Of a DNA stretch of 32,921 nucleotides, positions 28,738-32,921 are shown in pieces. Both the position numbers and the translations under genes were made by a program. The first letter of the stretch is position 1. The number at the start of each line of letters is the position of its first letter. The stretch lies in contig CAIYYW010000317.1 in the NCBI GenBank assembly GCA_903930515.1, forward strand, positions 1 through 32,921. Direction: 5' to 3'. The notes under the pieces were generated by a model, which ran no database searches, had not been told where the DNA came from, and saw nothing but the letters and a program-made list of their open reading frames with translations. The DNA is from an uncultured delta proteobacterium (GTDB taxonomy: Bacteria > RBG-13-61-14 > DRUE01).

Positions 28738-28764
28738 AAAATGAATCCGGGGATTAAAAATAAA

Positions 28765-29796
28765 ATGAACAACTCAAGGCATAGATTCCTGGCCGCCTGC
28801 GCCGGGAAAAAACCGGACCGGCCCCCGGTCTGGATGATGAGACAGGCCGGACGCGCCCTTCCCGAATACCGCGCGCTCCGGGAAAAACATTCCTTTGCCA
28901 GGCTCATCACCGATCCCGAGTTGGCCGCGAAGGTATCGCTTCAGCCGGTCAATCGGTTCGGTCTGGACGCCGGCATTATTTTCAGCGACATCCTGGTGGT
29001 TCCCTCGGCAATGGGGGTCAGGATCAAATATTCTCCCTCCATCTCCCTCTCGCCTCTGGTCCGGACCAAATCCGATCTCAACCGGCTCAAGGTCCCGGAG
29101 GTCGGCCGCGAACTCGGATTCGTGGCGCAAACGATCAAGAATGTTCGGCAAGAAAAAGGAAATGAAATCGCGGTGCTCGGATTTTCCGGCGCGCCCTATA
29201 CCCTGGCCTGCTATATGATTGATGGCGGCGGGAGCAAGAATTTCACCAGGACCAGGGCGATGTTATCTCAGGACCCGAAATTATTCCGGGGCTTGCTGGG
29301 AAAAATAGCGGAAACCGTCGGCGATTATTTGGAGATGCAACTCGAGGCCGGAGCCGACGCGGTCCAGTTGTTTGATACCTGGGCCTCTGAGCTGGGACCG
29401 GAAGACTTTGAAAAATTCGTCCTGCCCCATCTCCAGAAAATCGTCGGCCGGCTTAAGAAGAAAGACGCGCCCATCATCTACTACATCAACGGGATCGGGA
29501 ACCTGCTTTCGCTCGCGAAGGAAACCGGCGCGGACGCGCTCGGGATTGACTGGCGGATCAGCCTATCCGAGGTCCGCAAGAGACTGGGCCATAACCAGGT
29601 GGTGCAGGGGAACCTGGACCCGGCGGTCCTGTTCGCGCCGACCAAAGTCATCCGGGGAAAAGTTTTTAAAATGCTGGACCAGACTAATGGCAAAGGACAT
29701 ATCGTGAACCTCGGACACGGCCTGCTCCCGGATACGCCTATATCCGGCATAGAAACTTTTATCAATTCCGTAAAGGAATGGGCGAATAAAAAATGA
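28765..29796 (+). CDS. hemE: Uroporphyrinogen decarboxylase
   Basis: Removes four acetate carboxylates from uroporphyrinogen III to give coproporphyrinogen III. From ATG 28765 the 343-residue protein begins NNSRHRFLAAC, as expected for the family. It has the signature MRQAGRALPEYR (25-36), the catalytic Asp D75 in IIFSDILV, GFSGAPYTLACYMI and VNLGHGLLPDTP. An upstream in-frame ATG (28741) is rejected because it precedes the predicted transcription start. The stop overlaps hemN as ATGA. This is the first gene of hemE-hemN-hemH-hemG, the protoporphyrin-dependent route to haem. Confidence 0.95.
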   Translation: MNNSRHRFLAACAGKKPDRPPVWMMRQAGRALPEYRALREKHSFARLITDPELAAKVSLQPVNRFGLDAGIIFSDILVVPSAMGVRIKYSPSISLSPLVRTKSDLNRLKVPEVGRELGFVAQTIKNVRQEKGNEIAVLGFSGAPYTLACYMIDGGGSKNFTRTRAMLSQDPKLFRGLLGKIAETVGDYLEMQLEAGADAVQLFDTWASELGPEDFEKFVLPHLQKIVGRLKKKDAPIIYYINGIGNLLSLAKETGADALGIDWRISLSEVRKRLGHNQVVQGNLDPAVLFAPTKVIRGKVFKMLDQTNGKGHIVNLGHGLLPDTPISGIETFINSVKEWANKK

Positions 29797-31190
29797 ATGC
29801 GCCCATTAAAAATCGGCTCAGCCCGAGAACCATCCCCGGGCATCTGCTCCAGAAATATTATAAAAGCGGCCCGCGCTACACCAGCTACCCGACCGCGCCC
29901 CAGTTCCAGTCCGAGTTCAACCTGGAAAAAGTCCAAGCCGAATGGCTCAAGACCAATACCCCCAAGGGCAAGGGCCTGTCCCTATATATCCACATCCCCT
30001 TCTGCGCGAAGCGATGCCTTTATTGCGGGTGCTACACCGAGGCCGGGCATAACCGGGAAACCGCGGAAAAATATGTCTCAGCCTTGTTCCGGGAAACCGA
30101 CCGGATCTTAAAACTGATTGACCCGAAACGGCCCCTGGAGCAACTGGCTATGGGCGGAGGAACCCCGACTTTTTTGAAACCGGAGTTGATGGAATCCCTG
30201 ATCGCCGGGCTGAACCAATCCTTCAAATTCTCCAAGGCCGGGGAAAGGTCCATTGAAATTGACCCGCGCTCGGTGGACGATCATTACCTGGACTTGCTCT
30301 CGGAACTCGGCTTCAACCGATTCAGCTTCGGCGTCCAGGACCTGGACCCGGCGGTTCAGAAAAATGTCGGCAGGATTCAGCCGGAAGAAAAAATCGCGGC
30401 CTTGATCGCGCATCTCCGCGGGCTCCATCAAAACGCGATCAACCTGGACCTGATCTACGGACTCCCGGGCCAGACCCCGGAATCGTATTCCCGGACCATC
30501 GCCAAAGTGGTCCGGCTCCAGCCCTCAAGGATCGCCTTGTTCGGATACGCCCATGTCCCCTGGGTCAGCCCGCACCAGAAAGAGTTGGAACAGTATCACA
30601 TCCCCACTCCCGAGGAGCGGATGGCCCTGTTCGGACTGGCCTACGACCTGCTCCTGGACGCCGGCTACCAGCATATCGGGATGGACCATTTCGCCCTTCC
30701 CCAGGACGAGCTGATCCGGGCGCTCAACAGCAGGACCCTGACCCGGAACTTTATGGGATATGCCACCCGCCGAGGCCTGGACCTGATCGGGATCGGAGCC
30801 TCATCCATCTCCTCGGTCGGAGCCGCCTATGCCCAGAACGAGAAGGAAGTCCGGAAATTTATGGACCAATCCGAAAATTCCACCTGGATCAAAGCCCTGG
30901 TCCTTAATCAGGAAGACTTGCTCCGGCGCGAATTGATCATTGACCTGTTCTGCAATTTCTATCTGGACATTTCAATAATGGGAAAAAAGTTCGGGATCAA
31001 TTTCCAGCAACATTTCAGGCAAGAGCTTGCCGGGCTGAAGGGGATGGAGCAGGACGGGCTGATCATCATCGCCCAGGATCATCTCCAGGTCACCGACTTG
31101 GGCCGGTTCTTCATCCGCAATATCTGTATGACCTTTGACCAATACCTGGCCAAAGACGATTCCACCATCCGCTACTCCAAAACCAATTAG
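29793..31190 (+). CDS. hemN: Oxygen-independent coproporphyrinogen III oxidase (radical SAM)
   Basis: Converts coproporphyrinogen III to protoporphyrinogen IX without oxygen. The 465-residue protein is true HemN rather than HemW: it has the N-terminal KYYKSGPRYTSYPT (21-34) and the cluster motif C71-x3-C75-x2-C78 plus C80 (CAKRCLYCGC). Other marks are MGGGTPTFL, EIDPRS, RFSFGVQD and GLPGQTPESY, plus MDHFALP in the HemN C-terminal domain. The ATG overlaps the hemE stop by four bases. Its presence implies haem synthesis under low oxygen, although the terminal oxidase in this operon is the FAD type. Confidence 0.96.
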   Translation: MNAPIKNRLSPRTIPGHLLQKYYKSGPRYTSYPTAPQFQSEFNLEKVQAEWLKTNTPKGKGLSLYIHIPFCAKRCLYCGCYTEAGHNRETAEKYVSALFRETDRILKLIDPKRPLEQLAMGGGTPTFLKPELMESLIAGLNQSFKFSKAGERSIEIDPRSVDDHYLDLLSELGFNRFSFGVQDLDPAVQKNVGRIQPEEKIAALIAHLRGLHQNAINLDLIYGLPGQTPESYSRTIAKVVRLQPSRIALFGYAHVPWVSPHQKELEQYHIPTPEERMALFGLAYDLLLDAGYQHIGMDHFALPQDELIRALNSRTLTRNFMGYATRRGLDLIGIGASSISSVGAAYAQNEKEVRKFMDQSENSTWIKALVLNQEDLLRRELIIDLFCNFYLDISIMGKKFGINFQQHFRQELAGLKGMEQDGLIIIAQDHLQVTDLGRFFIRNICMTFDQYLAKDDSTIRYSKTN

Positions 31191-31197
31191 ATTCCCA

Positions 31198-32262
31198 ATG
31201 AACAAACCAGCCAGTCAAATTGATCCCGCGGTCGGGATCTTGTTGCTCAATCTGGGCGGGCCGGAAACCCTGGAGCAAATCCAGCCTTACCTATTTGAGC
31301 TGTTCTCCGACCCTGAAATTATCCGGCTCCCGTTTGGAACCTGGGTCCAAAAAAAATTCGCGGGCTGGATCAGCAAAAACCGGGCGTTGAAAGCGAGGGA
31401 AAAATACCAGGCCATCGGGGGCGGCTCCCCGCTGGCGCGCGAAACCGGGGAACAAGCCATCGGCCTGTCTAAAATCCTGGGGATGCCGGTGGAATTTGCA
31501 ATGAGATATTCAAACCCGCGGATTTCAGACGCGATCAAAAACCTGGCCGGCCTGGGAGCGAAGCGGCTGATCGTGATCCCGCTTTTCCCTCAATATTCCC
31601 GGTCAACCAGCGGGTCCGCGATCGCCGAGTTCAAAAAGCAAAACCCCGCCCTGCCCTTCCATATTATTGTTGAGCATCACGACGCGGCCGGATACCTCAA
31701 TGCCCTGGCTTCCGGCCTGAGCAACGCGCTCAAAGACCTTGACCCCTCTCTCCGTTCCCATCTCCTGTTCACCGCGCACAGTCTGCCGGAAAAATATCTT
31801 GAGCAAGGAGACCCATACCTGTCTCAAACCGAAGAAACCGTTAAAATGCTTGTTGGCGGCGCGGACACTCCTGCTTGCCCTGGGAAGCTCCCAAGGAGCG
31901 AAGCAGGGTCTCCTTATTGTGCGAGGAACTTTAGTCCCGATTCCGTTCCTCAGTTCTCCCTCGCCTTCCAGAGCAAGCTCGGCCCGGTCAAATGGCACGG
32001 GCCCTCCCTGGAGCAGGAGCTGGACTCGCTCCTGAAAAAAGGGGTGGAGCAACTGATCGTGTTTCCGGTCAGCTTTGTCTCGGAAAACCTGGAAACGATG
32101 TTTGACCTGGATCTGGAATTCCAGCAAAAATGTCTCAAGGCCGGGATTAAAAAATTTATCCGGGTCCCCTGCCCCGGTTCGTCGGAAATTTATTTGAACG
32201 CGCTCGCCGAGCTGGTGAAGATCGCGCTCCGGGAAAATAAATGGGAGAGCCAAAATGCCTGA
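31198..32262 (+). CDS. hemH: Ferrochelatase with an internal in-frame insertion
   Basis: Inserts Fe2+ into protoporphyrin IX. The 354-residue protein (start ATG 31198, eight bases after the hemN stop) has LLNLGGPETL, AIGGGSPL, IPLFPQYSRSTSGS, the metal-site His H194 (TAHSLPEKY) and the acidic SENLETMFDLD (E297, E299). Between KMLV and FSLAFQSKLGPVKW, where the family normally has only a few residues, lie about 33 extra residues (about 220-252). They are rich in Pro, Ser, Gly and Cys and encoded by two inverted repeats (31864-31910 and 31923-31951). The flanking segments read normally, so the frame is kept and the enzyme is probably still active. The stop overlaps hemG. Confidence 0.93.
   Translation: MNKPASQIDPAVGILLLNLGGPETLEQIQPYLFELFSDPEIIRLPFGTWVQKKFAGWISKNRALKAREKYQAIGGGSPLARETGEQAIGLSKILGMPVEFAMRYSNPRISDAIKNLAGLGAKRLIVIPLFPQYSRSTSGSAIAEFKKQNPALPFHIIVEHHDAAGYLNALASGLSNALKDLDPSLRSHLLFTAHSLPEKYLEQGDPYLSQTEETVKMLVGGADTPACPGKLPRSEAGSPYCARNFSPDSVPQFSLAFQSKLGPVKWHGPSLEQELDSLLKKGVEQLIVFPVSFVSENLETMFDLDLEFQQKCLKAGIKKFIRVPCPGSSEIYLNALAELVKIALRENKWESQNA
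31855..31953 (+). repeat. Palindromic element inserted in frame within hemH
   Basis: The first inverted repeat pairs CCTGCTT (31870-31876) with AAGCAGG (31901-31907) and inside it TGGGA (31881-31885) with TCCCA (31889-31893), loop AGC; GAC (31864-31866) and GTC (31908-31910) extend the outer stem with mismatches between. The second pairs GAGGAAC (31923-31929) with GTTCCTC (31945-31951) around a 15-base loop. Together they match the segment that interrupts ferrochelatase. I saw no second copy in the window. The exact ends are estimated from protein alignment by memory. Confidence 0.6.
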
Positions 32263-32921
32263 GGTGATCGTGATCGGAGCCGGCCCAGCCGGGCTGACCG
32301 CGGCTTTCAAGCTCCGGCAAAAAAATATTGAAACGCTGGTCCTGGAAGCGCAAGACCAACCGGGCGGAAATGTCCGGACCCTGGAACATCAAGGTTGCCG
32401 GCTGGAAACCGGCCCGCATACCTTTATGGGAGCGAACGAGTTTGTGCTTAAGCTGGTCGCGGAACTGAACCTGGAATCGAGCCTGATCCCGGCTTCTCCC
32501 GCGGCGGAAAACCGATACATCTTTAGAGACGGCCAACTCCACCCGCTTCCCACCGGCCTGATCCATTTCCTGAAAACCCCGCTCCTGAGCGCGAAATCCA
32601 AGTTCCGGCTTAGCCTGGAACCCCTGATCCCGGGCAAAGCCAAGCCCCTGGAGACCGCCTGGGAATTTTTTGTCCGCAGGTTCGGAGTTGAAGCCGCCAC
32701 CTATATAATGTCCCCGTTTATCTCCGGGATCTACGCCGGAAACGCCAAGATGCTCGGCGCCCGAGCGTCCTTCCCGAAATTCTGGAACTTTGAAAAAGAA
32801 TCCGGATCAATGATCGTCGGCGCGGCCAAATATATGCTGGCGAAAAGGAAACGGCTCAAGCGGGAGGGGATCGCTCCGAGGAAAGGACTGTTCAGCTTCA
32901 AAGAAGGACTGGGGACGCTGA
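32255..32921 (+). CDS. hemG: Protoporphyrinogen oxidase, FAD-dependent HemG/HemY type (3' end outside window)
   Basis: Oxidises protoporphyrinogen IX to protoporphyrin IX, the substrate of ferrochelatase encoded just upstream. The first 222 residues are present, with no stop. They have the FAD-binding VIVIGAGPAGLTAA (4-17), an acidic residue ending strand 2 (LVLEA) with the GG pair (QPGGNVRT), LETGPHTF, SPFISGIYAGN and FSFKEGLGTL at the edge. These match the soluble or membrane-associated PPO family (HemY in Bacillus nomenclature). The family usually needs oxygen, though some anaerobes keep it with other acceptors. The ATG overlaps the hemH stop by eight bases. A full-length protein would need about 230 more residues. 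Confidence 0.93.
   Translation, partial: MPEVIVIGAGPAGLTAAFKLRQKNIETLVLEAQDQPGGNVRTLEHQGCRLETGPHTFMGANEFVLKLVAELNLESSLIPASPAAENRYIFRDGQLHPLPTGLIHFLKTPLLSAKSKFRLSLEPLIPGKAKPLETAWEFFVRRFGVEAATYIMSPFISGIYAGNAKMLGARASFPKFWNFEKESGSMIVGAAKYMLAKRKRLKREGIAPRKGLFSFKEGLGTL

Follow-up and report, generated by a model that had tools for sequence, protein, structure and literature searches.

Introduction

Among the close described counterparts of the element reported here are the RPEs of Rickettsia, small palindromic DNAs inserted in frame in conserved enzymes as non-structured segments, and a guanylate kinase that bears one is still active (PMC2229807, PMC2996958). Outside Rickettsia, small palindromic or MITE sequences are reported to have inserted in frame in Wolbachia, Methanocaldococcus, Neisseria, enterobacteria and Coxiella (PMC2229807, PMC2996958, PMC5896051); an earlier, sequence-only reading of the present locus, which regarded such events as rarely described beyond Rickettsia, is corrected by these reports. 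The QMITE1/2 elements of Coxiella are non-autonomous repeats which overlap the C-termini of functional genes and give them stop codons (PMC5896051), and ERIC and Correia/NEMIS are small repeats with open frames that are found fused to genes (PMC2229807).

Our study concerns a ferrochelatase gene (hemH) with an additional segment in its interior. We consider it highly probable that this segment represents one copy of a composite repeat specific to the genus, with B first and A' second, which is normally found in intergenic DNA or at the 3' ends of genes, and that this copy entered hemH once the two species sequenced from the genus had diverged.

Results

The window (the whole stretch of 32,921 nucleotides analysed) carries the gene order hemE-hemN-hemH-hemG, which is common to the sister genome of the same genus (G001; assembly AlinenSedimentsD2 bin-1424, labelled uncultured delta proteobacterium). 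The 33-codon segment of hemH is made up of two tandem repeat elements, A' and B, both antisense to the gene (Table 1), and its peptide contains two Cys. The models of A' (R1) and B (R2) were built from other copies only, the hemH copy being left out to avoid circularity.

Table 1. Positions in the window of hemH, its neighbours and the parts of the insert.
Feature	Position	Strand	Remarks
hemE, uroporphyrinogen decarboxylase	28741..29796	+	syntenic in sister genome
hemN-like radical SAM gene	29793..31190	+	same cluster as hemH; syntenic in sister genome
hemH, ferrochelatase	31198..32262	+	354 aa, in-frame interruption; Pfam Ferrochelatase E 1.7e-89; best PDB relative human ferrochelatase
Extra hemH loop codons, residues 220-252, peptide GGADTPACPGKLPRSEAGSPYCARNFSPDSVPQ	31855..31953	+	net +25 residues relative to sister genome
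Element A', 59-bp imperfect hairpin	31858..31916	-	held-out covariance model R1, 68.7 bits, E 7e-17
Element B, 32 bp, core GGGACTAAAGTCCC / CGGGACTAAAGTCCC, abuts A'	31912..31943	-	held-out model R2, 46.7 bits, E 9e-9
GTTCCTCAGT	31944..31953	+	outside B consensus; may be a remnant of the original hemH linker
hemG-like FAD gene, downstream of hemH	32255..32921	+	named from sequence alone; runs off window; syntenic in sister genome

A blastn search of the gene's own genome (3.65 Mb in 401 contigs), using 121 bp around the segment as the query, returned 33 matches besides the segment itself, the weakest of which are due to chance. The best of them (C35:7693-7747) is 93% identical over 55 bp with an E value of 6.9e-17, and the matches group into two main families, A' and B. 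Together with the held-out models, this bears out the expectation of the sequence-only reading that the palindromic element would recur in the genome. The A' family has the hairpin form GACCCTGCTTCGCTCC...GAGCTTCGCAGGGCAAGCAGGAGTGTCCGCGCC, and the B family the sequence GAATCGGGACTAAAGTCCC(T/C)CGCACAGTAAGG, with the palindrome GGGACTTTAGTCCC, which the hemH copy carries at 31925-31938 with one mismatch. That reading had also described the insert as two inverted repeats; inverted-repeat and folding tools find the first hairpin clearly and the second more weakly, and the pairing proposed for the second (GAGGAAC/GTTCCTC, 31923-31951) is not the conserved palindrome. A hairpin of -41.6 kcal/mol over 111 nt is predicted in the mRNA, and the folding energy of the insert lies only modestly below that of shuffled sequences (z -1.7 as RNA, -2.3 as DNA); because this excess is modest, our case rests on recurrence and not on structure. 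A search of Rfam with the element gave no match.

Repeat copies were located by model search together with genome stretches. The model of B has 58 matches in its own genome and 49 in the sister genome, the sole same-genus relative (E up to 0.05), and that of A' has 27 and 32 matches respectively (E up to 0.5). The covariance model of B has zero matches in the same-order genome G002 and 109 other genomes (110 in all), and a search of IMG/VR with B found none. B is enriched near contig ends: 14 of the 43 copies considered in the own genome lie within 250 bp of one, where 2.4 are expected, and the true copy number is therefore probably underestimated. Contig C39 repeats the order and orientation of the composite (B at 57-86, A' at 88-145), so that B and A' may have moved together as a single unit. 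Several other short hairpins were seen in the course of these searches. The 21-bp hairpin GCGGACAGGAGTGTCCGCGCC (short hairpin A) occurs exactly in two IMG/VR contigs (L245:8480-8500 and L246:277-297), and the unrelated genomes G044 and G050 have somewhat A'-like hairpins, CCTGCTTCG...CGCAGG (L130, L155, L131, L157). Several genes (L022, L023, L025, L095) have yet another short hairpin, GCGGACAGGAGTGTCCGC, immediately before their ribosome-binding sites; its right half is common to A'.

The syntenic hemH of the sister genome is without the insert. It aligns to residues 4-224 and 253-354 of our protein, with 9 nt between the two blocks and identities of 55% and 69% in the flanks. The loop from L218 to Q258 has 39 residues here and 14 in the sister, against a median of 14 and a range of 13-31 among 27 homologues, and the supposition that a close homologue would lack the segment thus proved correct. 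The sequence-only reading had counted 33 codons interrupting hemH; these are indeed the codons of residues 220-252, and the net excess over the same-genus orthologue is 25 codons (75 nt). Since the models of A' and B together span 86 bp, more than the 75 bp gained, part of the old linker appears to have been lost or replaced. The exact junctions are ambiguous at 55-69% identity to the sister gene, with no target-site duplication discernible. Two homologues, L041 and L038, also have long loops in this region. Some homologues (L044, L053, L054, L055 and L056) carry a Cys-rich insert that follows the DP motif and precedes the next Tyr, in a different place from the insertion described here. The scan for relatives by hemH also returned a distant member of Thermoanaerobaculia.

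An AlphaFold model based on 28 sequences predicts an intact ferrochelatase with a mean pLDDT of 90.9, and Foldseek aligns it to human ferrochelatase (1hrk) with a TM score of 0.83. H194 and E299, the established catalytic His/Glu pair of ferrochelatases, do not vary across the 28 aligned sequences. Both the fold and the catalytic residues of the family are kept. The insertion, earlier suggested as a possible surface loop, is modelled as a disordered one: residues 224-239, between the helix 207-223 and the strand 253-258, have a pLDDT below 50. Judged from this prediction, the protein most likely tolerates the insert as a floppy loop. Taken together, the repeat matches, the shorter loop of the sister and the disordered model indicate an in-frame insertion that is specific to this lineage and falls in a loop whose length varies. 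Two of the three frames of the insert are open in the hemH orientation and one of three in the orientation of the element, which may explain why this copy survived.

Elsewhere the elements keep to the borders of genes. We examined 99 model matches in the two genomes (34 of A' and 65 of B, with hemH counted once in each), using gene calls from a simple codon-usage heuristic and not a trained gene finder. By this codon model, convincing coding sequence flanks the element on each side at hemH and at no other site, and apart from the two hemH matches the examined sites are intergenic or at gene ends. The sequence-only reading had suggested an element that tolerates coding regions or spreads in them, which is not upheld by this count. 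Other intragenic candidates (C35:18027, C156:991 and C609 of the sister genome) were rejected because they had low coding scores, were antisense to better-scoring genes or lay at the edge of an open reading frame. Where a gene lies upstream of B within 60 bp, the two share an orientation in 32 of 33 cases (P 8e-9), and where one lies downstream within 60 bp, in 29 of 37. About nine genes take their stop codon from B, through the TAA inside GGGACTAAAG, leaving tails such as RNRD*. The hemH copy is unusual twice over, being both inside a gene and antisense. Individual B copies that provide the stop for the gene before them include L099:3105-3136, L168:509-540 and L095:4015-4046, with the C-termini RNRD* and RNSD*; those of L099 and L168 appear to occupy the same site in both species. 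In the sister genome, a B copy at L111:1501-1529 (contig C309) lengthens the C-terminus of an apparent nuoB, giving the tail GTKVPRTVRKK.

No transposase could be linked to A' or B in a search of the Y1 genes. The own genome has four Y1 (IS200-like) transposase genes above the family cut-off (L031-L034), with no copy of A' or B within 1.5 kb of any of them and one weak match only (11.4 bits) in the 16.5 kb around them; a Y1/RAYT enzyme was rejected as the mobiliser on the grounds that no copies are nearby. The ends of the Y1 elements in L032 and L033 are of the tgacccc type and bear no relation to A' or B.

Discussion

We propose that the composite would have been moved into hemH by a transposase or a replicative process acting in trans. 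Its survival there may have depended on an antisense landing, on a loop already variable in length and on the use of one of the two open frames, and the outcome would be an enzyme that is still active, with a loop that is predicted to be floppy and near-neutral. As the single intragenic case, the hemH insert may be a chance survivor and not an instance of general behaviour.

It is possible that the insert was lost from the sister hemH rather than gained here, a reading disfavoured by the shorter loops of all 27 homologues. It is unlikely that a repeat copy was wrongly joined into hemH during short-read assembly. The assembly is fragmented and presumably metagenomic, and the excess of B at contig ends indicates that repeats trouble it; however, the two flanks form one coherent hemH in the right order, with the frame kept and with the identity to the sister gene given above, whereas a misjoin at a repeat would normally connect unrelated loci. 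The location in a haem enzyme, the two Cys residues and the predicted mRNA hairpin raise the question of a domesticated insert, with the peptide or the hairpin acting in regulation or metal binding during haem synthesis. We regard this as very unlikely: the peptide is what an antisense reading of the repeat gives in any case, the intergenic C35 copy yielding the near-identical ACPGKLRRSEAGS, the insert is predicted to be disordered, and the folding energy is no more than 1.7 standard deviations below shuffles. A Rickettsia-type palindrome, from a family adapted to proliferate in coding regions, would fit the in-frame position in a conserved enzyme and the predicted disordered loop, and is nevertheless highly improbable given that all the other sites among the 99 are intergenic or at gene ends. 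Ordinary variation in ferrochelatase loop length, which reaches 31 residues in other members, is refuted by the match of the DNA to intergenic repeats at E 7e-17 and by the 14-residue loop of the sister orthologue, and can hardly account for the segment.

Insertion of the composite repeat after the two species separated provides a clean case, with and without, of a palindromic repeat joining an essential enzyme, outside the groups where palindromic in-gene insertion is known. It is a testable example of neutral repeat DNA adding disordered loops to proteins, and the preferred orientation of B at gene ends offers a clue to its function or choice of target. A broader and distinctly tentative idea is that A' and B are gene-end modules, with B fixed in orientation at 3' ends, often giving the stop codon and occasionally invading gene interiors, so that selfish repeats would be continually recruited into C-termini and loops; they would then be two previously unrecorded families of a little-known genus.

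In-gene insertion of a hairpin repeat is rare but not unprecedented, and the hemH copy shares with the RPEs an in-frame position inside a conserved protein gene. Recurrent insertion in many coding genes was looked for and found at hemH alone among the 99 sites of the two genomes, and for this reason we do not file A' and B as RPEs. They also belong to a different lineage and are overwhelmingly intergenic, and their lengths of 59 and 32 bp differ from the 105-146 bp of RPEs, a separation made by description. ERIC and Correia/NEMIS, likewise compared by description, are unlike A' and B in size and lineage. The QMITE1/2 repeats of Coxiella resemble B in supplying stop codons at gene 3' ends, and differ, in a comparison again by description, in that neither terminal inverted repeats nor a target duplication is demonstrated for A' or B. 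In overall habit the two families are like the REP/BIME repeats: A' and B are short palindromes in tens of copies, mainly intergenic, in mosaic clusters and with a defined orientation. Membership in the RAYT-mobilised REPs is not supported, as the Y1 loci here are without flanking copies and one copy is intragenic; A' and B look like separate families of the genus that resemble REP/BIME-type repeats.
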